From Microtetraspora sp. NBRC 13810 (GTDB lineage Bacteria; Actinomycetota; Actinomycetes; Streptosporangiales; Streptosporangiaceae), in NCBI RefSeq assembly GCF_030268685.1, contig NZ_BSRQ01000004.1, forward strand, positions 310,001 through 374,000: a stretch of DNA of 64,000 bases, in the 5' to 3' direction. How positions within the stretch are numbered: position 1 is the first letter of the stretch; every line of letters begins with the position of its first letter. Under the pieces are notes generated by a model that was not told the origin of the DNA, did no database searches, and saw only the letters and a list, made by a program, of their open reading frames with translations. Below are positions 34,763-55,868 of the stretch, piece after piece. A program made the translations under genes and the position numbers.

Positions 34763-37700
34763 TCAGCCGATCTCGTCGATCATCTTGCCGGCGTCACGGG
34801 TGAGGGTCTGGCGCACCTCGGCGCGTGTCACCAGCCGCTGGTCGGCGACCAGTGTCCGGAAGCCGGCCAGGTGGCGCAGGGCCTTGGCGTCCTTGCCCTG
34901 GGCCTCCGCCTTCCTGGCCCTGGTCAGCTCCTTGGTCAGGGTCGTGTGCCCGGGGAGGGAGAGCCAGCCGGTGGCGCGGAAGCGGTCCAGCAGGTTCTGC
35001 ATGTCCCGCAGCGAGGTCGTGACGGTGAACCTGACGTCCGCCGTCACGGTGTTGCCCGCCCGGTCGTCCGCGGTGACGGCCACCGCGTGCGGCGTCAGGG
35101 ACTGGGTGAACAGCGGCAGCACGGAGCCGGCGGCGAGCGCGGAGCCGTCCAGCGTGCCGGCGGTGGTGCGTACCCCGGAGGTGGCGTCCACCGCCTGCCA
35201 GGTGATGCGCAGGTCCTGGGAGTCGCCGTACACCTCCCCGTCGGACACGCCGGAGACCATCAGGGTGGGCCGGGTGCCGTCGATCTTGAGCACGGCGGCC
35301 TTCTCCTGCTCGGCGGTGCCCGAGACATCCGTGGCCCGGTAGCGCAGTTCGTGCTCGCCGTCCCCGGCGACGACCACGGCCTCGCCGGCGTACTCCCGCC
35401 ACTCCCCCCGGTCCAGGGAGTACTCGACGCGGGCGACGCCGGAGGTGGCGTCCTGCGCGGCGAGGAGCACCGGCACGTCGCCGCCGCTCCAGCCCGCGTC
35501 GTTGGGCGCGGCGAACGACGCGGTCGTCTGCGGCGCGGTGGTGTCGATCCTCAGGGTGAGCGTCCTGGCCTCCTCCACGTTGCCCGCGCCGTCCCGGGAG
35601 CGGTACTCGAAGGCGCGCGAGCCGTCCCCGCTGACCAGCACCGGCTCCGTGTACGGGGTCCAGGCGCCCGCGTCGAGGCGGTACTCGGTCGCCGCCACGC
35701 CCGAGTCGTCGTCGGTGGCCGACAACGCCACCTCGACCGGGCCGGAGGTGTGCCAGCCGTCCGCCCCTTCGGGCTCGGCCGCCTCGGCCTCGGTGACCGG
35801 CGCCGTCCGGTCCGCGCCCCGGGCGGGGTTGAGCCGGAACCGCTGGTTGTCGCTGTTGGTGCAGTTCCACTGGATCACCCGGGCGCCGTCGGCCTGGGAG
35901 ACCCCGTCCACGTCGAGGCACAGCCCGTTGGCCGCCGAGGTGATCTTGTAGGTGTCCCCGGCCGGCACCGCCTCGAACCGCTGGTGCACCTGGTGGGCGT
36001 GGCCGGCGGGATGGCAGCTCCACTGGACGAGCTGGGCGCCCGCGGTGGGGGTGCCGCCGGGCACGTCGAGGCACTTGCCGCTCAGCGCGTTCCTGAACTG
36101 GTACCCGCCGGCGGCCGGGATCGCCTCCCACCGCTGCTCGGCCCCGCTGCTCGCGCCCATCTGGACGATGAGCGCGTCGTCGGCGGTCGAGCCGCCCTGG
36201 ACGGCGACGTTCTTGCCGCTGTGCTGCGCGGTGAGGGTGTAGAAGCCGGGCTCGGGGCCGCCGCCCGCGTCCCCGCCGGCGAACTGCACGGCGTCCAGGT
36301 CGAAGCCGTTGTCGCGGCCGTTCCTGAACACGGCGTAGATCGTCGTGCTGCGCACGCCGGAGTTCACCTGGACCGGCGGCGTCATCTGGTAGTTGTTCCA
36401 GTCGCCGGTGTTCGGCACGGGGGTGGTGGCCAGCAGGGTGCCGGTGGGCGAGCCGGCCCGCAGTTCGATGGAGCCGCCGCCGAACGGCGTGGACACCCGG
36501 TAACCGACCGACGTGATCCCGTTCAGGTCCATCGGGGTGAACGCGATCCAGTCGTTGTCGCTGATGTCGCCGATGCGCCTGCCGCTCTCCGCGCCCGCCT
36601 GGTCGATCACCCGGACGCCGGACATCGCGGTGAAGTACTCGGCCTGCTTGCGCTTGGGCTGGAGTACCACCTTGGCGTACCCGGTGAGCGCGTCCTCGCC
36701 CTCGTCGGTGTAGCGGGCGTTGATCACGTAGTAGAGGTCGGCGCCCTCGGGGTGGCCGCCGAGGTCGCCGGTGGAGATCGTGCCCTGGCAGCCCGGATGC
36801 TCGGCGGTCTCGTGCTCGTGGTCGTCGTGGCCGAGCGCCGGGACGGCGAGCACCCGGTCGCAGTCGATCGTGCCGTCCTCGGGGTCGGTCACCTCGATCG
36901 TGTACGGCACGTCCTGGCCGAACTCGATCAGCGTGCCGTCCAGGGGCGTCTCGACGGTGACCGTGGGCGAGGTGTTGCCCGCGGTGATCTCGATGTTGGC
37001 GAAGCCCTCCCTGCCGGTGTTGTCGGTCACCCTGAGCTGGGCGGTGTGGCGTCCGGCCTCCTGGTAGACGTGGGTCGCCGAAGGCTGGGAGGAGTCGAAG
37101 TCGCCGTCGCCGTCGAAGTCCCAGGCGAAGGTGATCGGGTCGCCGTCGGGGTCGGCGCTGCCCGCGCTGCCGAACTCCACGGTCAGCGGGACCGGGCCGT
37201 CGGTGCGCGAGGCGGTGGCCCTGGCGACCGGGGCGCGGGCGCCCGCGGAGTAGTCGATCCGGTAGAGCCCGGAGTCGTTGTTGCCGCCGCCGAAGGAGCT
37301 GCCCCACTCCAGCAGGTACATCGACCCGTCACGGCCGAAGGTGACGTCCATCGGCTTGACGAACGGCTGGTTCGCCAGGAAGTCGTTGACCTTCAGCACC
37401 TTGTCGTCGGCGTCGAGGTGGACCTCCTTGACGTAGTTGCGGGCCCACTCGTAGAAGAAGCCCACGCCGTCGAAGTAGGCGGGGAACTTCGTCTCCGACG
37501 GGTTGTCCTCGTCGTAGCGGTAGACGGGCCCGCTCATCGGGGCCGCGCCGCCCGATCCCAGTTCGGGGAAGCCCGGCGAGACGCCGTAGCCGTACCACAT
37601 GACGGGCTGCCGGAGCGGCGGCAACTCGGTCAGCCCGGTGTTGTTCGGCGAGTCGTTGACCGGGTTGGCGCAGTCGAACTTCGGCCCGACGACCTTGGTG

Positions 37701-39355
37701 TCCGGGTTGTAGGGCGCGTACGCCTGGTTGTCGCCGTGGCAGAACGGCCAGCCGAAGTTGCCCGCCTCCTTGATGACGTTGTACTCGACCAGGCCCTCGG
37801 GCCCGCGGTTCGTGGCGGGCGCGCCGCGGTCCGGGCCGTAGTCGGCCACGTGCACGTACCCGGTCTCCTGGTCCACGGTGAACCGGAACGGGTTGCGGAA
37901 GCCCATCGCGTAGATCTCCGGCCTGGTCTTCCCGGTGCCGGCCGGGAACAGGTTGCCCTCGGGGATGTCGTAGCCGCCGTCGTCCTTCGGCGTGATCCGC
38001 AGGATCTTGCCGCGCAGGTCGTCGGTGTTCCCCGCGGTGCGGGCGGCGTCCAGCATGTGCCGGCCGGGACGCCAGTCGAGCGGCGCGTAGCCCTGCCAGT
38101 CCGGCGACAGGTTCGGCGGGACGTCGTCACCGGTGCTCAGGTAGAGGTCGCCGTCCGGGCCGAACTCCACCGCGCCGCCGGTGTGGCCGGGCTCGGGGTA
38201 GGTGTCCTGCCGGTAGGCGGGCACTTCGAGGATCTGTTCCTCGGTGGCCGGGTCGATCGTGTCGCCGCTCACCGTGAACCGGGAGAGCCGGTTGACGTCC
38301 TCGTCGCTGGTGGCCGGCGACCAGTAGACGTAGATCCAGCCGTTGTCGGCGAAGTCCGGGTCGAGCTCCATGCCGACCAGGCCGTCCTCGCCGCCGGTGT
38401 ACACGTCCAGGGTGGCGGCGGTGACCGTGGTGTGGGTGTCCGGCTTGAAGATCTTGATCTCGCCGCGGCGCTGGACGTAGAAGACCCTGCCGTCGGCGGC
38501 GACGTCGAGTTCCATCGGGTCGGCGGTGTTGTCGTCCAGGGTGATCTTCTCGAAGCTGCTGTGCACGGTGCCGCCGCAGTCGCCCTCCTCGACACCGGCG
38601 GCCCAGCCGATGCCGCCGAGCACGTGCTCGCGGAACAGCGGCTCGCTGTAGGCGGCGGTCTCGTGGCCCATCGCGGTGGCCCACACCTTGCCGCCCTCGG
38701 CGTCGCGGCACCAGGAGATCGGGTGGTCGGCGCCCATCGCGGAGCCGCCCGGGTTGTAGGTGGTCTCGTCGGCGGTCACCAGGACGTGCACGTCGCCGCG
38801 CGGGTTCGGCGCGAAGTTGTACCACTCCTCGGCGCGCTGCCAGCGCGGCGGCAGGTTCCGGGTGGAGGGGTGGACCCGGTCGGCGACCTTGGCGGTGCCC
38901 TGCAACGTGCCCGGTGAGTGGGCGGGCATGTGCGCGCCGCCGTTGATCAGGTCGTCCCACCAGGGGAACTCGTTCTCGATGCCCATGTCCAGGGCGTTGT
39001 GCACGGCCACCACGCCCTTGCCCGAGCGTACGAAGTTCTGCACCGCCTGCCGCTGGGCGTCGTTCTCCCAGACCATGCCGGAGTTCTGCAGCATGATCAG
39101 CACGTCGAACGTCGCCAGGTTGGCGTCGTCGAACACGCCGGAGTCGGCGGACTGCACGACCTCGAACCCGTGCTCCTGGGCGAGCTGCCGGACCATCTGG
39201 ATCCCGGCCGGGATCGACCCGTGCACGTAGCCGACGGCCTTGGTGAACAGCAGCGCGCGGAAGGGCTCGTGCCGTACGGCTTCCGCGCGAGCCGTACCGG
39301 CGAGGGCGGTCAGGAGCAGGACGGGGAGGAAGAGGGCAGCGAGTAATCGGCGCAT
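34763..39355 (-). CDS. giant secreted ThuA / sugar dehydrogenase multidomain protein
   Basis: 1530 residues. A Sec signal spans 1-24 (ALFLPVLLLTALAGTARAEA). Domain order by rough residue number: ThuA-type glutamine-amidotransferase-like domain 30-250; soluble PQQ-type glucose/sorbosone dehydrogenase beta-propeller 265-690; PKD domain 700-790; CBM6-like domain about 900-1028 (LNGITSVGYRVSTPFGGGSI); ricin-type lectin about 1040-1175 (QW motifs); three OmpL47-type Ig-like units about 1185-1435; and a helical FIMAH-like domain 1449-1530. ThuA domains are linked to trehalose and other sugar use. It lies just downstream of a sugar transporter operon. Probably a wall-bound enzyme that oxidises a sugar at the surface. 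Confidence 0.88.
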   Translation of the reverse strand: MRRLLAALFLPVLLLTALAGTARAEAVRHEPFRALLFTKAVGYVHGSIPAGIQMVRQLAQEHGFEVVQSADSGVFDDANLATFDVLIMLQNSGMVWENDAQRQAVQNFVRSGKGVVAVHNALDMGIENEFPWWDDLINGGAHMPAHSPGTLQGTAKVADRVHPSTRNLPPRWQRAEEWYNFAPNPRGDVHVLVTADETTYNPGGSAMGADHPISWCRDAEGGKVWATAMGHETAAYSEPLFREHVLGGIGWAAGVEEGDCGGTVHSSFEKITLDDNTADPMELDVAADGRVFYVQRRGEIKIFKPDTHTTVTAATLDVYTGGEDGLVGMELDPDFADNGWIYVYWSPATSDEDVNRLSRFTVSGDTIDPATEEQILEVPAYRQDTYPEPGHTGGAVEFGPDGDLYLSTGDDVPPNLSPDWQGYAPLDWRPGRHMLDAARTAGNTDDLRGKILRITPKDDGGYDIPEGNLFPAGTGKTRPEIYAMGFRNPFRFTVDQETGYVHVADYGPDRGAPATNRGPEGLVEYNVIKEAGNFGWPFCHGDNQAYAPYNPDTKVVGPKFDCANPVNDSPNNTGLTELPPLRQPVMWYGYGVSPGFPELGSGGAAPMSGPVYRYDEDNPSETKFPAYFDGVGFFYEWARNYVKEVHLDADDKVLKVNDFLANQPFVKPMDVTFGRDGSMYLLEWGSSFGGGNNDSGLYRIDYSAGARAPVARATASRTDGPVPLTVEFGSAGSADPDGDPITFAWDFDGDGDFDSSQPSATHVYQEAGRHTAQLRVTDNTGREGFANIEITAGNTSPTVTVETPLDGTLIEFGQDVPYTIEVTDPEDGTIDCDRVLAVPALGHDDHEHETAEHPGCQGTISTGDLGGHPEGADLYYVINARYTDEGEDALTGYAKVVLQPKRKQAEYFTAMSGVRVIDQAGAESGRRIGDISDNDWIAFTPMDLNGITSVGYRVSTPFGGGSIELRAGSPTGTLLATTPVPNTGDWNNYQMTPPVQVNSGVRSTTIYAVFRNGRDNGFDLDAVQFAGGDAGGGPEPGFYTLTAQHSGKNVAVQGGSTADDALIVQMGASSGAEQRWEAIPAAGGYQFRNALSGKCLDVPGGTPTAGAQLVQWSCHPAGHAHQVHQRFEAVPAGDTYKITSAANGLCLDVDGVSQADGARVIQWNCTNSDNQRFRLNPARGADRTAPVTEAEAAEPEGADGWHTSGPVEVALSATDDDSGVAATEYRLDAGAWTPYTEPVLVSGDGSRAFEYRSRDGAGNVEEARTLTLRIDTTAPQTTASFAAPNDAGWSGGDVPVLLAAQDATSGVARVEYSLDRGEWREYAGEAVVVAGDGEHELRYRATDVSGTAEQEKAAVLKIDGTRPTLMVSGVSDGEVYGDSQDLRITWQAVDATSGVRTTAGTLDGSALAAGSVLPLFTQSLTPHAVAVTADDRAGNTVTADVRFTVTTSLRDMQNLLDRFRATGWLSLPGHTTLTKELTRARKAEAQGKDAKALRHLAGFRTLVADQRLVTRAEVRQTLTRDAGKMIDEIG

Positions 39356-45095: not shown

Positions 45096-46256
45096 TTGGC
45101 ACATGCCACCGCCGGAACGCTGCTGTCTATTCTGCGTGACGGCCAGGCGCGGACCCGGGCCGAGCTGATCGAGCTCACCGGCCTGGCGAGGTCCACGCTC
45201 TCCCAGCGGCTCGACGCCCTGCTGCTGCACCGCTGGATCCTGCCCGCGGAGGACGTGGTGCACTCCAAGGGGAGGCCGCCGATCGCCTTCGCCTTCAATC
45301 CCCGGGCCAAGATCGTGCTCGCCGCCGACCTCGGCGTCAGCCGCGCCCGGCTCGCGATCACCGACCTGCACGGCACGATCCTCACCCAGCGCACCGCCGA
45401 TCTGGCGGTCGACTCCGGCCCCGAGCACTGCCTGAGCTGGCTGCTGGAGACCTTCACCGAGTTGCTCGCCGAGTGCGGGCACGGCCTGGCCGACGTCTGC
45501 GGGGTCGGCCTCGGCCTGCCGGGCCCGGTGGAGCACGAGACCGGCCGCCCGGTGAACCCGCCCCTCATGCCGGGGTGGAACGGCTTCCCGGTGCCCGACT
45601 GGCTGGGCTCGCGCATCGGCGCCCCGGTGCTGGTGGACAACGACGTGAACATCATGGCCCTCGGCGAGCACTGGTCCGCCAGTCCCGCCACCAGGCATCT
45701 CGTGTTCGTGAAGATCGGGACCGGCATCGGCTGCGGCATCATCTCCAAGGGCCGCCTGCACCGCGGCGCGCGCGGCGCGGCCGGCGACATCGGCCACATC
45801 AGGGTGCCGGCCGCCGACCACGTGCAGTGCCACTGCGGCAACCCCGGCTGCCTGGAGGCGGTCGCCGGCGGGCGCGCGCTGGCCGCCCGGCTCCGCGAGG
45901 GCGGCGTCGAGGCGGCCGGCGGCCGTGACGTCGTGCGCCTGGTCCGGGCCGGCAACACCTGGGCGACCCGGCTCGTCCGGCAGAGCGGCAGGGACATCGG
46001 CCTGGTGCTCGCCTCGATGGTCAACTTCTTCAACCCCTCGCAGATCGTGATCGGCGGAGACCTGGCCGGGGCCGGCGACCATCTGATCGCGGGGGTCCGT
46101 GAGGTGATCTACGGCCGCTCGCTGCCGCTGGCCACCCAGCGTCTCGACATCCGGGCCAGCGCGCTGGCCGACCGCGCGGGGGTGACCGGCGCCGCGGTCA
46201 TGGTGATCGAGCACGTGCTCGCCCCCGACGCGGTCGACCAGACGGTGACGTTCTGA
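45096..46256 (+). CDS. ROK-family transcriptional repressor
   Basis: 386-residue regulator. A winged helix-turn-helix at the N-terminus (RTRAELIELTGLARSTLSQR) is fused to a sugar-kinase-like ROK domain with the zinc-binding consensus CHCGNPGCLEAVAGG (about residues 245-259) and the phosphate-binding text VDNDVNIMALGEHW. The start is TTG 45096, preceded by GGAAGGGGGCGGAG. It is divergent from the sugar transporter operon and should repress it until the sugar or its phosphate binds. Confidence 0.92.
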   Translation: MAHATAGTLLSILRDGQARTRAELIELTGLARSTLSQRLDALLLHRWILPAEDVVHSKGRPPIAFAFNPRAKIVLAADLGVSRARLAITDLHGTILTQRTADLAVDSGPEHCLSWLLETFTELLAECGHGLADVCGVGLGLPGPVEHETGRPVNPPLMPGWNGFPVPDWLGSRIGAPVLVDNDVNIMALGEHWSASPATRHLVFVKIGTGIGCGIISKGRLHRGARGAAGDIGHIRVPAADHVQCHCGNPGCLEAVAGGRALAARLREGGVEAAGGRDVVRLVRAGNTWATRLVRQSGRDIGLVLASMVNFFNPSQIVIGGDLAGAGDHLIAGVREVIYGRSLPLATQRLDIRASALADRAGVTGAAVMVIEHVLAPDAVDQTVTF

Positions 46257-46307: not shown

Positions 46308-46336
46308 TTTACACAACCAAAAGTCAGGTTTATACA
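46308..46336 (+). promoter_or_regulatory. promoter of the Ebo-like operon
   Basis: TTTACA (46308-46313) and TATACA (46331-46336) are exactly 17 bp apart, close to the housekeeping consensus, and 30 bp upstream of the first ATG. This is one of the best promoter matches in the window. No clear operator dyad overlaps it. Confidence 0.65.
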
Positions 46337-46366
46337 CCGAATATCAACGGACGTTCGGAGGTGCCT

Positions 46367-47473
46367 ATGGCTGCGGTCGGTGTCTGGCTCATCGGCGCGC
46401 GCGGATCCGTCGCGACCACGGTCGTCGCCGGTGCGGCCGCCATCCGGGCCGGACTGGCGCCGCCGCAGGGCTGTGTCACCGAGACCCCGGGCTTCCCCGG
46501 CACGCTGCCCAGGATCGCCGACCTGGTGTTCGGCGGCCACGACATCGCCGAGACCTCGCTGCGCAAGCGGGCCGAGCGGCTGAGCGCGGCCGGGGTGATG
46601 CCGGTCGCGCTGCCCGCCCTGCTCGCCCGGGATCTCGACGCCGCCGACGCCGAGATCAGGCCGGGCGACGTCCCGCTCGCCCGCCTGACCGAGGACCTCA
46701 CCGGATTCCGCGAACGGCACGGGCTGGACCGGGTCGTCGTGGTCAACGTGTCCTCCACCGAGCCGCCCGCCGTACCGCATCCCGCGTTCGGGGACCTGGC
46801 CGCGCTGGAGGCGGAGGGGCTGGACCTGCTGCCGCCCAGCTCCCGCTACGCGTACGCGGCCTTCCGCGCCGGGTGCGGCTACGTCGAGTTCACCCCGTCC
46901 ACCGGGCCGACGCTGCCCGCGCTCGCCGAACTGGCCGCCCGGGAGGGGGTGCCGTTCGCCGGGCGGGACGGCAAGACGGGCGAGACGCTGGTCAAGAGCG
47001 CGCTGGCGCCGATGTTCGCCGGGCGGGCGCTGCAGGTGCGGTCCTGGTCCGGGCTCAACCTGCTCGGCGGCGGCGACGGGGCCACGCTCGCCGACCCCGC
47101 CGCCAGGGCCAGCAAGCAGATCTCCAAGGACCGCGCGGTGTCCGGGGTGCTGGGCGAGGACGTCGAGGGCCAGACGCACATCGACTACGTGCCCGAGCTC
47201 GGCGAGTGGAAGACGGCCTGGGACCACGTCACGTTCGACGGCTTCCTCGGCGTGCGGATGACCTTCCAGTTCACCTGGCAGGGGTGCGACTCCGCGCTCG
47301 CCGCGCCGCTGGTGCTGGACCTCGCCCGGCTGGTCGCCAGGGCACACGAGAAAGGCAGGTCCGGAGTGCTCCCCGAGCTGGGCTACTTCTTCAAGGATCC
47401 GCTCGGCTCGGCCGAACACGGGCTGGCCGCCCAGTACGAACGGCTGCGCGCCTTCGCGGGGGAGCTGGCGTGA
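46367..47473 (+). CDS. inositol-3-phosphate synthase family protein (first gene of the Ebo-like operon)
   Basis: 368-residue homologue of myo-inositol-1-phosphate synthase, which converts glucose-6-phosphate to inositol-3-phosphate with NAD. It has an N-terminal NAD-binding loop WLIGARGSVATT and, in the catalytic domain, the block ARASKQISKDRAV with Lys250 and Lys254, and YVPELGEWKTAWDHVTF with Lys282; these lysines match catalytic positions in the yeast enzyme. The domain layout (SWSGLNLLGGGDG, then CDSALAAPLVLDL) is closer to the eukaryotic type than to the shorter mycobacterial Ino1. GGAGG lies 5 bp before ATG 46367. Overlaps the prenyltransferase gene (GTGA). Confidence 0.88.
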   Translation: MAAVGVWLIGARGSVATTVVAGAAAIRAGLAPPQGCVTETPGFPGTLPRIADLVFGGHDIAETSLRKRAERLSAAGVMPVALPALLARDLDAADAEIRPGDVPLARLTEDLTGFRERHGLDRVVVVNVSSTEPPAVPHPAFGDLAALEAEGLDLLPPSSRYAYAAFRAGCGYVEFTPSTGPTLPALAELAAREGVPFAGRDGKTGETLVKSALAPMFAGRALQVRSWSGLNLLGGGDGATLADPAARASKQISKDRAVSGVLGEDVEGQTHIDYVPELGEWKTAWDHVTFDGFLGVRMTFQFTWQGCDSALAAPLVLDLARLVARAHEKGRSGVLPELGYFFKDPLGSAEHGLAAQYERLRAFAGELA

Positions 47474-48408
47474 GGGCGCTGCTGGAGCTCGTCAGGGCGC
47501 CCGCCGCGGTCTCGGTGCCCGGGGACACGATGGCCGGCGCCGCCGCCGCGGGCCGGCCGGCCGCTCCCGGCGCCGCGGTGGCCTCGACGCTGCTGTACTG
47601 GGCGGGCATGGCGCTCAACGACTGGTCGGACCGGAAGATCGACGCGGTGGAGCGCCCGGAGCGGCCCATCCCGTCGGGCCGGGTCCGGCCCGGCACCGCG
47701 CTCGGGCTGGCCGCGGCCCTGACCGGCGCCGGGCTCACCGCCGCCGCGGTCTCCGGCGGACGCCGCGGTCTCGCCCTCGCCGGGCTGCTCGCGGGCTGCG
47801 TGTGGGCCTACGACCTGGGGCTCAAGCACACGGCGGCCGGACCCGCGTCGATGGCGGCCTGCCGTACCCTCGACGTGCTGCTCGGCGCGGGCGATCGGGT
47901 GCGCGCCGCCGTCCCGACGGCGCTGGCGATCGGGGCGCACACCTACGGGATCAGCGTCCTCGGCCGCGCCGAGGTCAAGGGGGCCACGCCCGGCACGGCC
48001 ACCGCCGCGCTCGCCGCCGCCGGCGGCGCCGCCGCCCTCACCGCCCTCGGCGCCCTGCGCCCCGCCGCCGCGTCCGGTCCGCCGGTCAGGGGCGTGCGCG
48101 CCCGCACGGCGGCGCTCCTCCGCCCGCCCGCCAAGGGCGCCACGGCCGCAGGGCCGTGGCCGCCGGGGCGGACCGTGGCGGCGCTGCTGCTGGCCGGGTA
48201 CGTCGCCGCGTCGGCGCGGGCGCAGGCCGGGTTACGCGCCGACCCGTCGCCCGAGCGGGTACGGCTGGCGGTGCGGACGGCCATCCTCGGCCTCATCCCG
48301 CTCCAGGCGGCGACGGTCGCCGGGCGCGGGCGGCTCACCCAGGCGGGCGCCCTGCTGGCCCTGCTCCCCGCGGGCCGCGTCCTCTCGGAGCGGATGGCCA
48401 CCTCGTGA
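47470..48408 (+). CDS. eboC: UbiA-family prenyltransferase (EboC / SCO3242 type)
   Basis: 312-residue membrane prenyltransferase with about eight hydrophobic helices. The first Asp-rich motif is NDWSDRKID (residues 50-58), needed to bind the isoprenoid diphosphate, followed by RPERPIPSGR as in the UbiA family. The second motif is weaker (YDLGLKHT). It would transfer a polyprenyl chain to a polar acceptor. The next gene in the operon overlaps by GTGA. In Ebo clusters this position is filled by EboC. Confidence 0.88.
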   Translation: MRALLELVRAPAAVSVPGDTMAGAAAAGRPAAPGAAVASTLLYWAGMALNDWSDRKIDAVERPERPIPSGRVRPGTALGLAAALTGAGLTAAAVSGGRRGLALAGLLAGCVWAYDLGLKHTAAGPASMAACRTLDVLLGAGDRVRAAVPTALAIGAHTYGISVLGRAEVKGATPGTATAALAAAGGAAALTALGALRPAAASGPPVRGVRARTAALLRPPAKGATAAGPWPPGRTVAALLLAGYVAASARAQAGLRADPSPERVRLAVRTAILGLIPLQAATVAGRGRLTQAGALLALLPAGRVLSERMATS

Positions 48409-49265
48409 ACTGGTCCTACTGCACCAACGGCTTCCCCGGGCATCGCCTGCCCGAGGCGCTGACCGTCCTCGCCGACCTGGGCTACACCGGGGCGGCGATC
48501 ACCCTGGACCACGGCCATCTCGACCCGTACGCCCCCGGGCTGGCCGGCGAGGTCCGGGCGACCGGCAAGCTGCTCGGCGAGCTGGGCATGAACGCCGTCG
48601 TCGAGACCGGCGGGCGCTACACCCTGGACCCCCTGCGCAAGCACCACCCCACGCTGCTGAGCGACGGCGCGGAACGCAGGATCGACTACCTGGTCAGGTC
48701 GATGCGGATCGCCGCCGACCTCGGCGCCCCGGTGGTGCACCTGTGGAGCGGGGCGCTCCCCGCCGGGGTGACGCCCGAGGAGGGCTGGGACCGGCTGGCC
48801 CGCGGCTGCGCGCGGCTGGTCGAGGAGGCCGGGCGGGCCGGGGTCGTGCTCGGCTTCGAACCCGAGCCGGGGATGCTGGTGGCCGACCTGGCCGGGTACG
48901 AGCGGCTGCGCGGCATGCTCGGCGGCCCCGCGGCGCTCGGGCTCACCCTGGACATCGGCCACTGCCGGTGCGTCGAGCCGTACGACGTGCCCGAGTGCGT
49001 ACGGCGGGCGCTGCCGTACCTGGTGCACGTGCAGATCGAGGACATGCGCAGGGGCGTGCACGAGCACCTGGAGTTCGGCGAGGGCGAGATCGACTTCCCG
49101 CCCGCGCTCGCCGCGCTCGGCGGTTTCCGGGGGCAGGTGGCGGTCGAGCTGGCTCGGCACGGCCACGCGGCCCCGGATGTCGCCCGCCGGTCGATCGACT
49201 TCTTGAGGAGGGCATATGAACGAGTGGACCGCGCAGGCCCTGAGGCAGGTGAGGGAGGATCCTGA
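48405..49265 (+). CDS. sugar phosphate isomerase/epimerase in the Ebo-like operon
   Basis: 286-residue TIM-barrel protein of the xylose-isomerase-like superfamily. The metal-binding positions are visible as Glu in LGFEPEPGML, Asp and His in LTLDIGHCRCVE, His in LVHVQIEDM and Glu in VAVELARHG. It starts with GTG 48405 overlapping the prenyltransferase stop. Its 3' end overlaps the EboA gene by 50 bp, a long overlap for coupled genes. It could act on the product of the inositol phosphate synthase or be a second EboE-like fold protein; its substrate is unknown. Confidence 0.85.
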   Translation: MNWSYCTNGFPGHRLPEALTVLADLGYTGAAITLDHGHLDPYAPGLAGEVRATGKLLGELGMNAVVETGGRYTLDPLRKHHPTLLSDGAERRIDYLVRSMRIAADLGAPVVHLWSGALPAGVTPEEGWDRLARGCARLVEEAGRAGVVLGFEPEPGMLVADLAGYERLRGMLGGPAALGLTLDIGHCRCVEPYDVPECVRRALPYLVHVQIEDMRRGVHEHLEFGEGEIDFPPALAALGGFRGQVAVELARHGHAAPDVARRSIDFLRRAYERVDRAGPEAGEGGS

Positions 49266-49704
49266 GGCGGTGCACCGGCTGTTCCCCCGGGCGGAACGGC
49301 TGGGCGGCCCGGACGCCAGGGCCGCGCTGCTGGCACTGGTGGACGCCGGGGCGGTGGCGGCCCTCTACCGCGACGGCGACGCGGGCGAGCGGCTGGCGAT
49401 CCTGCGCGCGCTGCCCGGTCTCGACCTGGGCCCGGCCGCGCTGCCCCTGGTCGAGGACGCGCTGCGGACCAACGACGCCCGGCTGGTCGCGGCGGCGCTC
49501 GGTCCCTACGGGTCGCGCTGGCTGGACGACCACGCCTTCCGCCACGGCGTGCTCAAGTGCGTGTTCATGTCGATCCCGCTCGCGTCGGTGGACGGGCTCG
49601 ACCGCCGGTTCGACGCCGAACTCGCCAGGATGCTCGCCGACCACGCCGCCGAGCGGCGGGCGGCGGGCCGTGAGGTCCCCCAAGACGTGCTGGAGAGGCT
49701 CTGA
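49216..49704 (+). CDS. eboA: EboA-domain protein
   Basis: 162-residue protein of the EboA family, a set of small, cytoplasmic, all-helical proteins with HEAT-like text and no known catalytic motif. Characteristic are RLAILRALPGLDLGPAALPL and the segment HAFRHGVLKCVFMSIPLASV. EboA is the marker of Ebo clusters; its biochemical job is unknown. It starts within the preceding isomerase gene (50-bp overlap) after a GAGGAGGG site and is joined to the hydrolase gene by TGATG. Confidence 0.88.
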   Translation: MNEWTAQALRQVREDPEAVHRLFPRAERLGGPDARAALLALVDAGAVAALYRDGDAGERLAILRALPGLDLGPAALPLVEDALRTNDARLVAAALGPYGSRWLDDHAFRHGVLKCVFMSIPLASVDGLDRRFDAELARMLADHAAERRAAGREVPQDVLERL

Positions 49705-50546
49705 TGCGCATCTTCGACCCCCATATCCACATGACGTCCCGCACGACCGACGACTACGAGCGGATGTACGCCGCGGGCGTGCGGGCGGTGGTGGAGCCCG
49801 CCTTCTGGCTGGGCCAGCCGCGCACCGGTGTGGGCAGTTTCCTCGACTACTTCGACTCGCTGCTCGGCTGGGAGCCCTACCGGGCGGCGCAGTACGGGAT
49901 CCGGCACCACTGCGCGCTGGCGCTCAACCCCAAGGAGGCCAACGACCCGCGCTGCGCGGACGTACTCACCGAGCTGCCGCGTTACCTGCTCAAGGACTCG
50001 GTCGTCGCGGTCGGTGAGGTGGGCTACGACTCGATGACGCCGGAGGAGGAGCGGGTCTTCGAGGCGCAGCTCGCCCTGGCCGCCGACGCCGACCTGCCGG
50101 TCCTGGTGCACACGCCGCACCGGGACAAGACCGCGGGCACCCGGCGCACGCTGGACGTCGTGCGCGCCTGCGGCACCCGGCCGGAGCGGGTGCTGGTGGA
50201 CCATCTGAACGAGCTGACCGTCGGCATGGTCGCGGAGTCCGGCTGCTGGATGGGGTTCTCCATCTATCCCGACACGAAGATGGACCCGGACCGGATGGTG
50301 GCGATCCTGAAGGAGTACGGCACGGAGAGGATGCTGGTGAACTCGGCGGCCGACTGGGGACGCAGCGACCCGTTGAAGACCCGCCAGGTCGCCGACGCGA
50401 TGCTGGCGTCCGGGTTCACCGCCGATGACGTGGACCGGGTGCTCTGGCACAACCCGATCGGCTTCTACGGCCAGAGCGGGCGGCTGGACCTCGGCGAGGT
50501 CTCCGCCGGGGCGGAGTACGCGGGCAACACGATCAGGCGGGGCTGA
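49704..50546 (+). CDS. eboB: TatD-family metal-dependent hydrolase (EboB-like)
   Basis: 280-residue TIM-barrel hydrolase. The metal site begins with DPHIHM (Asp5, His7, His9); further ligands are Glu in AVGEVGYDS, His in VLVHTPHR and DHLNEL, and Asp in NSAADWG. TatD proteins cut DNA or small phosphoesters, but the relatives inside Ebo clusters probably act on a small metabolite. One-base overlap (TGATG) with EboA and 3 bp gap to EboE show one message. Confidence 0.87.
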   Translation: MRIFDPHIHMTSRTTDDYERMYAAGVRAVVEPAFWLGQPRTGVGSFLDYFDSLLGWEPYRAAQYGIRHHCALALNPKEANDPRCADVLTELPRYLLKDSVVAVGEVGYDSMTPEEERVFEAQLALAADADLPVLVHTPHRDKTAGTRRTLDVVRACGTRPERVLVDHLNELTVGMVAESGCWMGFSIYPDTKMDPDRMVAILKEYGTERMLVNSAADWGRSDPLKTRQVADAMLASGFTADDVDRVLWHNPIGFYGQSGRLDLGEVSAGAEYAGNTIRRG

Positions 50547-50549
50547 CCG

Positions 50550-51656
50550 ATGCGGCTGCGCCATCCCGACGGCTCGATCGTCCACCTCGCCTACTGCACC
50601 AACGTGCACCCCGCCGAGGACCTGCCCGGCATCCGCGGCCAGCTCTCCGGCTTCGCCGCCCGGGTGCGCGGCCTGCTCTCCGCCGACCGCCTCGGGGTCG
50701 GCCTGTGGCTGCCGCACGACGCGGCCCGCGCCCTGCTCGACGACCACGCCGAGCTGGTACGGCTGCGCTCGCTGCTGGACGATCTCGGGCTGGAGGTGGT
50801 GACGCTCAACGGCTTCCCGTATCGCGGATTCCACCAAGAAGTCGTGAAATATCGGGTCTACAGTCCGGACTGGGCGTGCGCCGACCGGCTCCGGTACACC
50901 CTCGACCTCGCCGAGATCCTCGCCGCGCTGCTGCCGGACGACATCGACGAGGGCACGATCTCCTCGCTGCCGCTGGCCTGGCGTACCGGCTGGACGCCGG
51001 GGAAGGCGGCGGTCGTGGCGGGCATGCTCGACCAGGCGGCGCTCGGCCTGCGCGCGCTGGCCGAGCGCACCGGCAAGGTGGTCAGGCTCGCCCTGGAGCC
51101 GGAACCGGGCTGCATCGTGGAGACCACCGCGCAGGCCGCCCACCACCTGCGCGGCGTGGACCGCGACTTCGTCGGCGTCTGCCTGGACGCCTGCCATCTC
51201 GCGGTGGGCTTCGAACGGGCCCGGATCGAGCTCGACCTGCCGATCGTGAAGCTCCAGGCGTCGTGCGCGCTGGAGGCGCCGGCCGGTTCGCAGGCGGCGC
51301 TGTCGGCCTTCGCCGAGCCGCGCTTCCTGCACCAGGCCCGTTCGGCGTCGGGATCGGTGGACGACCTGGACGAGGCTCTCGCCGGCGGCCTGCCCGCGGA
51401 CGAGGACTGGCGGGTGCACTTCCACATGCCGTTGCACGCCACGCCGCCGCCGCCGCTCACCACCACCTCCCCCTACCTGCGAGAACTGCTCGGCACGCTG
51501 TTCGGCGGCCGGACGCCGGCCACCCGGCACGTCGAGGTGGAGACCTACACCTGGAGCGTGCTGCCGGGCGGCGCCCCCGACCTCGCCGAGGGCATCGCCG
51601 CCGAACTCGACTGGACGCGGCGGGAGCTGGCCGCCCTCGGACTGAAGGAGCTGTGA
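50550..51656 (+). CDS. eboE: EboE-like TIM-barrel protein
   Basis: 368-residue protein that begins with VHLAYCTNVHPAEDLPGIRG, the signature opening of the EboE family (metabolite traffic protein). Further family text is VVTLNGFPYRGFHQEVVKYR and RLALEPEPGCIVETTAQAAH, with metal-ligand-like residues Glu, Asp-His (CLDACHLAVGF) and Glu (VEVETYTW). No signal peptide. The name reflects genetic evidence in other bacteria that Ebo proteins help a metabolite reach the outside; the reaction is not known. Confidence 0.88.
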   Translation: MRLRHPDGSIVHLAYCTNVHPAEDLPGIRGQLSGFAARVRGLLSADRLGVGLWLPHDAARALLDDHAELVRLRSLLDDLGLEVVTLNGFPYRGFHQEVVKYRVYSPDWACADRLRYTLDLAEILAALLPDDIDEGTISSLPLAWRTGWTPGKAAVVAGMLDQAALGLRALAERTGKVVRLALEPEPGCIVETTAQAAHHLRGVDRDFVGVCLDACHLAVGFERARIELDLPIVKLQASCALEAPAGSQAALSAFAEPRFLHQARSASGSVDDLDEALAGGLPADEDWRVHFHMPLHATPPPPLTTTSPYLRELLGTLFGGRTPATRHVEVETYTWSVLPGGAPDLAEGIAAELDWTRRELAALGLKEL

Positions 51657-52981
51657 TGGCGCCGCTCGTCGTGATCAACGTGGTCGGCCTGACCCCCCGC
51701 CTGCTGGCGCACATGCCGAACGTGGCGCGGGTCGGCGCCGCCGCCTCGCTGCGGCCGGTGCTGCCCGCGGTGACCTGCTCGATGCAGGCCACCCTGCTGA
51801 CCGGCACGATGCCGCGCGAGCACGGGATCGTCGGCAACGGCTGGTACTTCAGGGACCTCGGCGAGGTGCTCCTGTGGCGCCAGCACAACGCGCTCGTCCA
51901 GGGCGGCCAGCTGTGGGACGCCGTGCCGGGGCTGCGCACCGCCAACGTCTGCTGGTGGTACGCGATGGGCGCGGCCAGCGACCTGCTCGTCACGCCGCGC
52001 CCGATCTACCACGCCGACGGCCGCAAGTCGCCCGACTGCTACACCCGGCCGCCCGCGCTGCACGACGCCCTGGAGGCGAAGCTCGGGCCGTTCCCGCTGT
52101 TCAACTACTGGGGGCCGACCGCGGGGATCGCCTCCTCGCGGTGGATCGTCGCCGCCGCCCGGCACATCCTGCGCGAGGAACGCCCCGGCCTGCTCATGGT
52201 CTACGTCCCGCACCTCGACTACGACCTGCAACGGTTCGGTCCGGACGGCCCGGAGGCGATCGCCGCCGCCAGGGAGGTGGACGCCGTGCTGGCGCCGCTG
52301 CTGGTGGAGGACGCCACGGTCGTGGTGGTGTCCGAGTACGGCATCACCGCGGCCTCCCGCCCGGTCGACGTCAACCGGGCCCTGCGCAGAGCCGGCCTGC
52401 TGGAGGTCTACACCCAGGCCGGGATGGAGTACCTGGACCCGTGGGCGTCCAGGGCGTTCGCGGTGGCCGACCACCAGGTGGCCCACGTGTACGTGCGCGA
52501 CCCCGCCGACCTCGACCGCGCCCGGGACGTGATCCGCGAGCTGCCCGGCGTGGACGAGCTCCTCGACCAGGCGGGGAAGGCGAAGTACGGCCTGGACCAC
52601 GAGCGGGCCGGCGACCTGGTCGCGGTGGCCGAGCCGGACGCCTGGTTCACGTACTACTACTGGCTCTCCGACGACCGCGCGCCCGACTTCGCCCGGCTGG
52701 TGGACATCCACCGCAAGCCCGGCTACGACCCGGCCGAGCTGTTCATGAACCCCGCCGATCCCCTGGTCAAGGCCCGCGCCGGGTACGCGCTGGCCAGGAA
52801 GGCGCTCGGCTTCCGCTACACGATGCCGGTGGTGCCGCTCGACCCCGCCCCGGTGCGCGGCAGCCACGGCCGGCTGCCCGACGCCGCCGCCGACGGCCCG
52901 GTGCTGCTGGGCCCCTTCGACCGCGCCGCCTACGACGCCACGGAGGTGAAGGGCCTGCTCGTCGGCCTGCTGACCGAATGA
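51656..52981 (+). CDS. alkaline-phosphatase-superfamily phosphodiesterase (EboF-like)
   Basis: 441-residue nucleotide-pyrophosphatase-like enzyme, last gene of the operon. The nucleophile region reads PVLPAVTCSMQATLLTGTMP (the Thr of VTCSMQ is the likely nucleophile). Metal sites are VPHLDYDLQRFG, VVVVSEYGI and DHQVAHVYV. It should cleave a phosphodiester or pyrophosphate. No secretion signal is evident, so it would act in the cytoplasm. Start and stop overlap EboE (TGATG). Its stop codon touches the stop of the convergent ligase gene. Confidence 0.87.
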   Translation: MAPLVVINVVGLTPRLLAHMPNVARVGAAASLRPVLPAVTCSMQATLLTGTMPREHGIVGNGWYFRDLGEVLLWRQHNALVQGGQLWDAVPGLRTANVCWWYAMGAASDLLVTPRPIYHADGRKSPDCYTRPPALHDALEAKLGPFPLFNYWGPTAGIASSRWIVAAARHILREERPGLLMVYVPHLDYDLQRFGPDGPEAIAAAREVDAVLAPLLVEDATVVVVSEYGITAASRPVDVNRALRRAGLLEVYTQAGMEYLDPWASRAFAVADHQVAHVYVRDPADLDRARDVIRELPGVDELLDQAGKAKYGLDHERAGDLVAVAEPDAWFTYYYWLSDDRAPDFARLVDIHRKPGYDPAELFMNPADPLVKARAGYALARKALGFRYTMPVVPLDPAPVRGSHGRLPDAAADGPVLLGPFDRAAYDATEVKGLLVGLLTE

Positions 52982-54484
52982 TCACCTCCTGCGCGGGTGC
53001 GGGGCCACCGTGTCCTGCGGTGAGCCGATCGTCCGCTTGAGGATCTTCCCGGTGGGGCTTATCGGCAGCTCGTCGGCGAAGGAGATGTGCCGCGGATACT
53101 TGTACGCGGCCACCCGCTGCCGGGTGAAGTCGCGCAGTTCCTCCGGCTCCACCGGGGAGCGCGGCACCACCACGGCGGCGATCTCCTCGCCCAGTTCCGG
53201 GTGCGGCACCCCCATGACCACCGCGTGCCGTACGGCGGGATGCTCGTACAGCACCTCCTCCACCTCCCGCGGGTACACCGTGTAGCCGCCTCGGATGATC
53301 ACGTCACGGCGGCGGCCGACCAGGAAGAAGAAGCCGTCGCCGTCCACCCTGCCGAGGTCGCCGGTGTGGAACCAGCCGTCCCTGAGGGCCTCGGCGGTGG
53401 CGGCGGGGTTGTTCCAGTAGCCCTTCATCACGTTGGGGCCGCGGATGACGATCTCCCCGACGTGGCCGCACGGCACCTCCTCGCCGCGCTCGTCGACCAC
53501 CTTCATCTCCACGCCCTTGATCGGCCAGCCGATCGACCCGGCCCTGCGGCCCTCGCCGGAACGGTTGGTGGCGGCCACCGGCGACGTCTCGCTCAGGCCG
53601 TACCCTTCGACGATCGAGCAGCCGAACCGGGTCTCGTAGGCGCGGAGCACGTCCACCGGGAGGGCGGAGCCGCCGGAGGTGCAGACGCGCAGCAGCGACA
53701 TGTCCGAGGCGCCGGGGTGGTCGAGCAGCGCGATGTACATCGTGGGCACGCCCTGGAAGACCGTGACGCCGTCGCGCCGGATCACCTCCAGCGCCCGGCC
53801 CGCCTCGAAGCGCGGCAGCAGGGTGAGGCGGGCGCCGGCGTGGATGGTGGCGTTGAGCGAGCAGGTCTGGCCGAAGGCGTGGTAGAGCGGCAGCGCGCCG
53901 AGGACGACGTCGTCCACGCCGAGCGCGTGCATCCGGGCGACCGTCGCGGCGTTGCCGCCCAGGTTGGCGTGGGTCAGCTCGACGCCCTTGGCCCGGCCGG
54001 TCGTCCCGGAGGTGTAGTGGATGACGGCGGTGTCGTCCGGCGCGGTGGCCGCGACGTCGTGTTCGGCGGCCACGCCGCGCAGCAGCCGGCGGAACTCCTC
54101 GGGGACCACGAAGAAGCAGTCGGCGCCGGTGCCCGCCGTACCCGCCTCGGCCGTCTCCGCGAAGGCGTGCCAGGCGATCAGCAGCCGGGCCCCGCAGTCT
54201 CCGACGTACGCGGCGATCTCCCGTCTGCGCAGCAGCGGGTCGAGCGGGACGACCACGGCGCCGATGCGCAGGATGCCGTAGTAGATGACCGCGAACTCCG
54301 GGACGTTCGGCAGCATGACCGCCACCCGGTCGCCCGCGCCGATGCCGCGCTGCCGGAGCAGGCCCGCGACGCGCGCGCTCAGCAGTTCGAGGGTGCCGTA
54401 GGTGATCTCGGCCTCGTCCAGCGTGACGACCGCTCTCCCGGCGAGCCGCTCCGCGGCGGCGCGCAGCCGGTCAGCGAGGTTCAT
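52982..54484 (-). CDS. AMP-binding acyl-CoA ligase
   Basis: 500-residue member of the ANL superfamily that activates a carboxylic acid to its CoA thioester via the adenylate. The phosphate-binding loop is YTSGTTGRAKG (residues 157-167). The core contains VEGYGLSETSPVA and WFHTGDLGRVDGDGFFFLVG; the hinge is GRRRDVIIRGGYTVYPREVE; and the catalytic lysine near the C-terminus is in PTGKILKR. ATG 54484 overlaps the upstream PucR gene by 14 bp, so both are coexpressed. Aromatic or medium-chain acids are likely substrates given the neighbouring transporter and decarboxylase. Confidence 0.93.
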   Translation of the reverse strand: MNLADRLRAAAERLAGRAVVTLDEAEITYGTLELLSARVAGLLRQRGIGAGDRVAVMLPNVPEFAVIYYGILRIGAVVVPLDPLLRRREIAAYVGDCGARLLIAWHAFAETAEAGTAGTGADCFFVVPEEFRRLLRGVAAEHDVAATAPDDTAVIHYTSGTTGRAKGVELTHANLGGNAATVARMHALGVDDVVLGALPLYHAFGQTCSLNATIHAGARLTLLPRFEAGRALEVIRRDGVTVFQGVPTMYIALLDHPGASDMSLLRVCTSGGSALPVDVLRAYETRFGCSIVEGYGLSETSPVAATNRSGEGRRAGSIGWPIKGVEMKVVDERGEEVPCGHVGEIVIRGPNVMKGYWNNPAATAEALRDGWFHTGDLGRVDGDGFFFLVGRRRDVIIRGGYTVYPREVEEVLYEHPAVRHAVVMGVPHPELGEEIAAVVVPRSPVEPEELRDFTRQRVAAYKYPRHISFADELPISPTGKILKRTIGSPQDTVAPHPRRR

Positions 54485-55868
54485 GGAACCGACCGTACGT
54501 CTGGCGCGCACGGCTCTCATCGGTCGCGGCGGCCAGTCTTTTCCGCTCGGGATTGGTGCCCGGAGGCAGCGAGTCCACCAGCGCGATCGCGACGAGCAGT
54601 TCGAGGAGGTCGTTGATCCTGCGCAGGCTGCGCCCGGTGCGCTCGCGGATCCTGCGCAGCCGGTACTGCGCGGTGTTGGGGTGGATCTGCAGCCGCTCCG
54701 CGCAGTCCCGCAGGTTGAGGTCGGCCGCGGCGAAGGCCCTGATGGTGGCGGTGAGGACGCCGCCGCGTGCCCGGTCCTCGGCGAGCATGGAGGTGATCCG
54801 CGGGTCGACGAGGTGCCGGGCGGTGTCGTCGGCGCGCAGGGCGAGATACTGGAAGGCGGTGATCCGGGGCAGCGCCGCCACCCCGCCGTCCTCGGGCAGG
54901 AACTCCAGCACGGTGCGGGCCTCCTGGTAGGCCTGCGGGATGCGCGCGGTCCCGGCGATCACGGTGCTGATCCCCACCGCCAGCACGATCCCCTCGCCGA
55001 GCAGGCTCTCCCGCGTCGCCTCCAGCCGGTCGCACAGGTCCCCGGCGGCGGCCCCGGGGCCGAGGGCGGGGATGGCCACGATCTCCGACTGGCGTACGAC
55101 GGACAGCGTCCTGGTGCCGTTCCCCCAGGTCCGCGCGATCGCCGCGCAGGCCGCGTGCCGCGCGTCGGCGCCGCGGTCCGGCCCGGCCGCCACCGCCTCG
55201 CCGCGCGGCCCGGGTAACAGCGGCGCGAGGACCGCGACCACCACGAGCAGCGGCGTGCGGGTGTCCGGCCCGAGGCCGTGCGCCTGCGCGGCGGCGAGCT
55301 GCCGGCCGCGGGTGGGCGCGCCGCCGGCCAGCAGGGTCTCCAGCAGGTCCCTGCTCTCGCGCACCGCCTCGGCGGCGGCGTACTGCTGGAACTCCATGTA
55401 GGCGTTGGCCGCGTGCGTGCTGGCGAAGTCGCAGTAGCGCATCAGCGGCGTGGCCAGCGAGAGCGCGGCCTCGTGCCCGGCGAACGTACGGCCGGCCCGC
55501 TCGACCACCGACTCCCAGAAGACCTGCTGGCCGACCCGGAAGGCGTTGATGTAGTCGGCCAGGGCGACCCCGGACCTGGCCCGCCGCATGGCCGCGCGGC
55601 GGGTGAAGGCGATGTCGTCCAGGGTCACCGTGCGGTCTTCGAGGAGGACGGCCAGTTTGCTGCGGTAGTGCCGGGCGACCTGGTCGCGCACGTCGGCGTG
55701 AAAGGTGTCGTCCTGGGCCGCGTAGGCGGGGATCTCCGCCCGCATCGTCCTGGCGGCCGTGTCGGCCAGGCGGTTCAGGTCGTGGAGGAGCTCTGACAGG
55801 ATGCGCGTCCGTTCAGCACGGACCGTCTCCGCACCAGTGAACGTTTCCGCGCTGAAGCCACTGGACAT
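54471..55868 (-). CDS. PucR-family (CdaR-like) transcriptional regulator
   Basis: 465-residue regulator with an N-terminal helical sensor domain, a central GGDEF-like/CdaR region and a C-terminal PucR helix-turn-helix (FAAADLNLRDCAERLQIHPN, then TAQYRLRRIRERTGRS). Such regulators respond to purine breakdown products, sugar diacids or aromatic acids. It is divergent from the transporter operon with a dyad between them, and coupled to the ligase, so the whole locus is probably under its control. ATG 55868 is preferred over the upstream open frame. Confidence 0.88.
   Translation of the reverse strand: MSSGFSAETFTGAETVRAERTRILSELLHDLNRLADTAARTMRAEIPAYAAQDDTFHADVRDQVARHYRSKLAVLLEDRTVTLDDIAFTRRAAMRRARSGVALADYINAFRVGQQVFWESVVERAGRTFAGHEAALSLATPLMRYCDFASTHAANAYMEFQQYAAAEAVRESRDLLETLLAGGAPTRGRQLAAAQAHGLGPDTRTPLLVVVAVLAPLLPGPRGEAVAAGPDRGADARHAACAAIARTWGNGTRTLSVVRQSEIVAIPALGPGAAAGDLCDRLEATRESLLGEGIVLAVGISTVIAGTARIPQAYQEARTVLEFLPEDGGVAALPRITAFQYLALRADDTARHLVDPRITSMLAEDRARGGVLTATIRAFAAADLNLRDCAERLQIHPNTAQYRLRRIRERTGRSLRRINDLLELLVAIALVDSLPPGTNPERKRLAAATDESRARQTYGRFHEPR

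Follow-up and report, generated by a model that had tools for sequence, protein, structure and literature searches.

An actinobacterial ebo operon variant in which an inositol phosphate synthase relative and a xylose-isomerase-like protein may replace EboD

Introduction

Which enzymes supply the presumed ring of the ebo product in actinobacteria? The question is raised by seven co-directional, mostly overlapping genes at 46367-52981 on the forward strand of a 64,000-nucleotide stretch of the Microtetraspora sp. NBRC 13810 genome (contig NZ_BSRQ01000004.1, positions 310,001 to 374,000; hereafter, the window). They form an ebo operon that encodes a relative of inositol phosphate synthase (here called INO) and a xylose-isomerase-like protein (here called TIM) instead of EboD, the dehydroquinate-synthase-like sugar phosphate cyclase to which formation of the cyclitol is attributed in most of the other bacteria sampled.

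The eboA-F operon was defined in 148 taxa, including Bacteroidetes, Cyanobacteria and eustigmatophyte plastids, and an isoprenoid-cyclitol product was posited for it, with sedoheptulose 7-phosphate as the substrate of EboD (Yurchenko et al. 2016, PMC5133447; statements drawn from this and the other papers cited refer to the available parts of their texts). In Nostoc, ebo is required for scytonemin and was assigned a part in delivering a metabolite into the periplasm (Klicki et al. 2018, PMC6282210). An excretion role was postulated for the EDB cluster of Pseudomonas fluorescens NZI7, which contains ebo homologues and which we liken to the present operon by its description (PMC6282210). Although the cluster spans many phyla and algal plastids, its product has long been elusive (PMC5133447, PMC6282210), and the presence of INO and TIM in EboD's stead offers a new handle on it.

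The word inositol is absent from the main texts of PMC5133447, PMC6282210, PMC9235831 and PMC6092422, and we recognised no description of an ebo operon with an inositol synthase in the literature examined, subscription journals, preprints and supplements aside. The INO-type operon is a real and widespread variant of the known ebo system, and it is apparently undescribed. Its UbiA and INO genes compare with SCO3242 and SCO3243 of Streptomyces coelicolor, a putative transferase and a myo-inositol phosphate synthase that are counted within the CDA cluster and are not handled as ebo genes in the available part of PMC3610822.

Results

The window encodes an ebo operon with INO and TIM instead of EboD

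The INO gene (46367-47473) starts at an ATG behind a GGAGG; the GTG at 46361 given in the list of open reading frames (ORFs) lies six bases upstream. It is followed by genes for a UbiA prenyltransferase in the position of EboC (47470-48408), TIM (48405-49265), EboA (49216-49704), the TatD-like metal-dependent hydrolase EboB (49704-50546), the TIM-barrel "metabolite traffic protein" EboE (50550-51656) and EboF, a phosphodiesterase-like member of the alkaline phosphatase superfamily (PF01663; 51656-52981). As the original prediction for this locus had noted, the genes are joined by GTGA overlaps (INO/UbiA and UbiA/TIM), a 50-bp overlap (TIM/EboA) and TGATG junctions (EboA/EboB and EboE/EboF), all of which we read in the sequence together with one 3-bp gap, between EboB and EboE.

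The assignment to the ebo type, also made in that prediction, was borne out by profile searches, in which EboA scored 150 bits against the EboA domain model NF035938 (cut-off 50), EboE scored 374 bits against the TIM_EboE model NF035939 (cut-off 250), and the UbiA protein scored 324 bits against NF045897 (cut-off 260), a family model that takes its name from SCO3242. The EboE sequence could also be aligned with canonical EboE. Like the canonical operon, that of the window clusters EboA, a TatD-like EboB, a UbiA enzyme, EboE and EboF; it differs in having an Ino1-fold synthase and a xylose-isomerase-like gene instead of EboD, in the SCO3242 subfamily of its UbiA enzyme and in its gene order, INO-C-TIM-A-B-E-F. 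No match to the EboD profile was found in the 64-kb window.

INO belongs to a clade apart from housekeeping Ino1

Both domains of INO scored over the Pfam cut-offs (Inos-1-P_synth, 113 bits; NAD_binding_5, 153 bits). Among solved structures, the archaeal Ino1 from Archaeoglobus fulgidus is the closest (1u1i, 2.4e-68), with homology that covers most of the length, and further matches were obtained to 6k96, named as a five-membered-cyclitol-phosphate synthase (1e-11), and to the inositol-3-phosphate synthase 1gr0 (4e-10), which we take to be Mycobacterium tuberculosis Ino1. Nine positions, D225, K227, N255, D261, K274, K278, K306, D332 and K367 in A. fulgidus numbering, are identical in 90/90 ebo-linked rows of the alignment and are also kept in 31/31 rows of housekeeping-type Ino1. 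Alanine stands at K278, K367 and N255 in the PDB alignments of 3qvw, 3qvx and 3qw2, respectively, and the remaining six positions are presumably active-site residues. The conservation of active-site lysines had been predicted; it holds, for four of them (K274, K278, K306 and K367) rather than the three that had been counted. The position of A. fulgidus D259 is occupied by G in 89/90 ebo rows and by N in all 31 other rows, which, together with the location of INO in an ebo operon, sets INO apart from the archaeal enzyme.

Against the mycothiol_INO1 equivalog (TIGR03450; cut-off 638), INO scored 38 bits and is not a member, whereas a protein encoded on another contig of the same genome (C28) scored 683 bits and is the strain's own mycothiol-type Ino1. 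The two proteins have the Pfam superfamily and the active-site lysines in common. In a tree of 123 Ino1 rows, the deepest branch (support 100; 5.35 and 2.96 on either side of the midpoint root) separated the 90 ebo-linked rows and two PDB rows from 31 further actinobacterial rows, the C28 copy among them; the 30 non-ebo Ino1 loci fetched for this tree were the best-scoring matches and lean to housekeeping forms. A long-branch warning was raised for the two PDB rows and for the Gemmatirosa locus described below, and their placement was not used. One partial INO (L069, 79 bits, under 300 amino acids) was left out of the tree and is counted as present in the census below. By the mycothiol_INO1 score, the C28 copy and the tree split, a housekeeping Ino1 was ruled out as the identity of INO. 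A single-sequence model of INO reached a pLDDT of 41 and was discarded.

INO-like synthases (263-290 bits) were also observed in two clusters that contain no ebo genes (L291, 3070-11137; L292, 2908-10890), where they are accompanied by an HD-domain protein, an IolG-like Gfo/Idh oxidoreductase and TIM, and in L291 also by YcaO and a methyltransferase-like gene. These clusters possibly make an unknown inositol-derived natural product, and in them the link between INO and TIM is seen again.

INO and TIM accompany EboA across the actinomycetes

The EboA domain search of the class Actinomycetes gave 91 places in 85 of 394 genomes, including the window's own, and the other 90 loci were fetched and scanned with profiles made from annotated plasmid loci and the window. 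This census of EboA neighbourhoods, which had been suggested along with the original prediction, found INO in 83/90 loci and EboD in none. Compared with most other bacteria sampled, the Ino1 homologue thus occupies the place of EboD, as had been proposed. INO and TIM occurred together at 79 loci, INO without TIM at four, TIM without INO at four and neither at three. The exact order INO-UbiA-TIM-EboA-EboB-EboE-EboF on a single strand was kept at 71 of the 90 loci, which come from many families; chance would not give conservation of this degree. No EboD was found in the seven INO-less loci either: three are cut by contig ends (L035, L048 and L085), two are second copies (L068 and L071), one has a Gfo/Idh gene in the place of INO (L072), and one is a lone EboA (L122).

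A profile search for EboD anywhere in the genome, in which the best four first-look candidates of each listed genome were scored, gave no match at E <= 1e-90 in any of the 394 genomes of the class, our strain included, and matched 5/5 EboD-type genomes at 1e-168 or better as a positive control. Across the wider phylum, 11/246 genomes proved to have EboE, and the four of these outside the class (G440, G462, G482 and G542) were all of the seven-gene INO type. The INO-type ebo operon is therefore the actinomycete rule. Neither of the outcomes named in the original prediction as refuting it was observed: the profiles for EboA and EboE match, INO falls apart from housekeeping Ino1, and the seven genes stay together elsewhere.

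The second copies in L068 (12504-16886) and L071 (12515-17340) have a gene of the inositol monophosphatase family upstream, detected in the former by a neighbour scan and matched in the latter by profile. L068 also contains genes for a CrtO-like FAD protein and a gamma-glutamyltranspeptidase (Pfam/NCBIfam), and ORFs of the same lengths are found in L071.

INO and EboD exclude each other within loci

To the actinomycete loci we added 87 non-actinobacterial ones, namely the best 80 of 579 EboE relatives on named genome contigs, ranked by likeness to an Azospirillum EboE, and seven plasmid loci. The latter came from a plasmid EboE search that returned 48 records, of which 13 were opened (7/16 non-actinobacterial and 6/32 actinobacterial). 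EboD was present at 71 of the 87 loci, INO with TIM at one, neither cyclase at 15 and both at none. Among the 15 loci with neither, eight had EboE alone, several on short contigs, and two alphaproteobacterial loci (L148 and L149) and one from Nostoc (L207) had A, B, C, E and F with no EboD within the stretch. TIM was found by profile scan in 82 of 86 INO loci, a count that includes two plasmid loci used for profile building, and in 0 of 71 EboD loci. TIM belongs to the cyclase swap.

Plasmid 2 of Gemmatirosa kalamazoonensis (Gemmatimonadota; L133) carries adjacent TIM and INO genes with a UbiA gene, EboF, EboB and EboE. In the EboE tree, this locus joins an EboD-type Gemmatimonadetes locus (L160; support 88) within the starred EboD group; its partner in the EboB tree is a Deinococcus locus of the EboD type (100/95). 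Both trees have starred branches that require the cyclase type to have changed at least twice; roughly one in three actinobacterial rows was retained for these trees (33 and 34 INO rows, respectively). Judging from these trees, Gemmatirosa likely represents a second, separate cyclase swap; apparently, INO and TIM take the place of EboD in two distinct backgrounds, which is what would be expected of a functional replacement. A general rule that INO is barred from EboD-type genomes was rejected, since two of the seven such genomes tested hold an INO relative elsewhere. The mutual exclusion of INO and EboD is one of loci and not always of genomes.

The remaining operon proteins

The UbiA enzyme retains the NDxxD and YDxxxK motifs and scored 113 bits against the EboC equivalog NF035940, below its cut-off of 250; by these scores, it is assigned to a subfamily apart from canonical EboC. 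TIM matched Pfam AP_endonuc_2 (118 bits) and, weakly, UlaE, IolE and hydroxypyruvate isomerase, and together with its co-occurrence this marks it as a putative sugar or cyclitol isomerase partnering INO. EboA scored 61 bits against the stricter full-length model NF035937 (cut-off 320). Its AlphaFold model (pLDDT 97) is an all-helical solenoid that aligned with HEAT-like and alphaRep solenoids at VIA-align Z scores of up to 9.5, possibly reflecting just a common helical-repeat arrangement, and Foldseek gave no match at E <= 0.001. We call this predicted fold "HEAT-like"; it fits a scaffold but is no proof of that function. TIM and EboA lie in one open frame at five loci (L034, L097, L116, L117 and L119), and novelty of this fusion was ruled out because xylose-isomerase-EboA hybrids in Actinobacteria had been reported earlier (PMC5133447).

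EboB matched Pfam TatD_DNase (56 bits) and the EboB profile (496 bits), and EboF matched Pfam Phosphodiest (195 bits) and the EboF profile (747 bits), both profiles having been built from annotated ebo loci and the window genes themselves. The stretches SEYG, HLDY and DHQ..H are common to the window EboF and canonical EboF, and SEYG occurs in 8/8 aligned EboF sequences, actinobacterial and canonical (the window gene and canonical L125-L131). A partial EboE-like match was also seen near the end of contig C9 of our genome (L309; residues 1-242, 183 bits against the EboE family); no further ebo gene was detected in its surroundings.

GSDH-domain genes lie near many INO-type operons

We compared stretches of up to 20 kb fetched around EboA with 40 arbitrary control stretches from 40 of the same genomes. 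A glucose/sorbosone dehydrogenase (GSDH) domain was found near 53/89 actinomycete INO-type loci and in 3/40 controls (Fisher p 7e-9, which overstates the case because related genomes are not independent). The same comparison gave 43 vs 2 for ThuA, 39 vs 1 for 3-keto-disaccharide hydrolase, 48 vs 0 for a second xylose-isomerase-like gene and 35 vs 1 for Gfo/Idh. One control GSDH match (L269) adjoins an ebo locus on the same contig (L080); if anything, this makes the control rate too high. With family labels entered by hand from the genome tables, the GSDH-positive loci belong to 6 of 11 families (f18, 21/30; f1, 14/21; f19, 14/18; f37, 2/2; f28, 1/3; f45, 1/1), and no GSDH domain was found within the stretches of families f17, f8, f36, f26 and f4. 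GSDH was also present at 20/87 non-actinobacterial loci, a figure that has no control set.

In the window, a protein of 1530 amino acids with ThuA, GSDH, PKD, CBM6, ricin-lectin and FIMAH domains is encoded on the reverse strand at 34763-39355, about 7 kb from the ebo operon and outside it; proteins of the same kind lie near many other INO-type operons, and this one accounts for one of eight GSDH matches in our 9-Mb genome. Their domains suggest that GSDH-domain proteins are secreted. The link to GSDH and ThuA provides a concrete physiological assay. A literature search returned no paper that combines any three of ThuA, 3-keto-disaccharide hydrolase, sorbosone dehydrogenase and Streptomyces.

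Three Streptomyces plasmid loci (L130, L245 and L247) have a ScyD/ScyE-family gene immediately before INO. Genes for a multicopper oxidase and an aromatic prenyltransferase lie close by in all three, and one for a type III polyketide synthase was seen in L245 and L247; these loci offer a possible parallel to scytonemin. Two other plasmid loci lie near nonribosomal peptide synthetase or adenylation-domain genes.

Possible role of the INO-type operon

The gene content of the operon, its conservation, the exclusion of INO and EboD within loci, the coupling of TIM to INO, the conserved active site and the association with GSDH are observations, from which we infer every reaction, every substrate and the product of the INO-type operon. 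On balance, we consider it probable, though not strongly so, that in this actinobacterial form of ebo INO and TIM have taken over the formation of the ring. INO would cyclise a hexose phosphate, glucose-6-phosphate being the likeliest, through oxidation with NAD, an aldol closure and a final reduction. TIM would isomerise or epimerise the product into a form usable by the shared Ebo enzymes. The membrane-bound UbiA enzyme would then add a prenyl chain, and EboE, EboB and EboF would complete the molecule, with EboA, helical and HEAT-like and sometimes fused to TIM, perhaps acting as a scaffold for the Ebo enzymes. The product would work at or across the membrane for extracytoplasmic enzymes or metabolites. 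The original prediction envisaged a cyclitol phosphate that is prenylated and then trimmed by EboF and EboB, giving an inositol-based lipid or a metabolite-traffic carrier; these steps, and a prenylated inositol lipid as the product, are hypothetical. If two unrelated enzyme sets do supply the ring, then the ring of the product must be reachable from both, which leaves fewer candidates. Furthermore, because INO-type operons make up nearly all of the actinomycete ebo loci sampled and the SCO3242/SCO3243 pair occurs in S. coelicolor, the pathway can be tested in a standard laboratory strain.

Several observations weigh against replacement of EboD by INO and TIM. The nine residues kept in INO are kept equally in housekeeping rows and do not prove activity on glucose-6-phosphate, and 6k96 shows that the Ino1 fold is able to make other rings. 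The partnership is imperfect: TIM is present and INO absent in L068 and L071, TIM is missing in four INO loci, and in L148 and L149, which have neither EboD nor INO, no other cyclase was seen among the scanned upstream genes. The non-actinobacterial loci were sampled by likeness to one Azospirillum EboE. In Gemmatirosa, no EboD was found in the 17 kb read, and the rest of that genome was not searched for it. INO relatives of 519 and 226 bits occur on other contigs of the EboD-type genome behind L160 (G714; contigs C223 and C207), in which the sole EboE lies on the EboD contig and none was found on the contig of the 519-bit relative, and a weaker relative (262 bits) occurs in the EboD-type Cesiribacter genome behind L190. 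For this reason we grade the second swap as likely and have lowered our odds for the reading as a whole. NPP phosphodiesterases carry an SDHG-type metal-ligand motif, which is absent from all eight aligned EboF sequences; with SEYG instead, a plain phosphodiesterase role is doubtful across the EboF family. Finally, those relatives of EboC that were assayed farnesylate quinoline-like substrates, with the aromatic quinoline 8-HQA preferred, and not a cyclitol, and the actinobacterium Saccharomonospora is counted as a bearer of an ebo cluster described with 3-dehydroquinate synthase (PMC9235831).

INO could instead meet a general demand for inositol, free or phosphorylated (for phosphatidylinositol, mycothiol or an osmolyte), and merely travel with the ebo genes. 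It does match true inositol phosphate synthases in Pfam and at the active site, but the genome already has a mycothiol-type Ino1 in the clade opposite the ebo rows, and INO is found at most actinomycete EboA loci and never beside EboD, so that we regard this explanation as improbable. A chance or recently assembled neighbourhood without joint function is scarcely credible: nothing was found in its support, and it is already contradicted by the conservation of the full one-strand order in many families, by the overlapping genes and by the fusion of TIM to EboA. A possibility to be taken more seriously, although we still think it unlikely, is that the chemistry of INO is altered, giving, in place of myo-inositol phosphate, either a keto- or deoxy-cyclitol (or its phosphate) or a ring of five members, with TIM shifting a ketone or epimerising. 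EboD-type cyclases give keto-cyclitols, the homologue 6k96 is named for a five-membered product, TIM and an IolG-like Gfo/Idh oxidoreductase lie beside INO-like genes in ebo-free clusters, and the D259 position differs between ebo and other rows. EboD-type cyclases are also stated to release phosphate (PMC5133447). Against an altered chemistry, every canonical catalytic lysine and aspartate examined is kept in INO.

The association with GSDH raises the further question of what the product does. GSDH and ScyE-like proteins are, we assume, beta-propellers, and the ebo product might be a soluble cofactor or electron acceptor for such extracytoplasmic proteins and not a lipid carrier, the apparent export defect of the Nostoc ebo mutants then being a consequence of ScyE inactivity. 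We give this explanation a rather low probability. The frequency of GSDH near INO-type operons and the ScyD/ScyE-family genes directly before INO speak for it, as does the finding that all Nostoc ebo mutants and the scyE mutant accumulate an identical monomer; however, the monomer is in the periplasm of the scyE mutant and not of the ebo mutants, which favours export (PMC6282210), and 36/89 loci, including all those of five families, have no GSDH within the stretch. Somewhat more doubtful still, and offered as a speculation, is a broader scheme in which the ebo product is a membrane-bound or exported cyclitol-derived cofactor for extracytoplasmic beta-propeller oxidoreductases (GSDH/ThuA sugar oxidases and ScyE-like proteins). 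Bacteria would have arrived independently at two routes to its ring, EboD starting from a C7 sugar phosphate and INO with TIM starting from glucose-6-phosphate, and the actinobacterial operon would be the cytoplasmic half of extracellular sugar oxidation.

Promoter-like sequence and flanking genes

A near-consensus promoter had been predicted upstream of INO. A promoter-like pair, TTTACA-17-TATACA, can be read by eye at 46308-46336 on the forward strand; the claim of near-consensus quality was not upheld, as a consensus scan gave 0 sites over threshold at these positions. The operon is flanked upstream by a ROK-family gene (45096-46256) and downstream by a gene for an AMP-binding ligase on the opposite strand (52982-54520).

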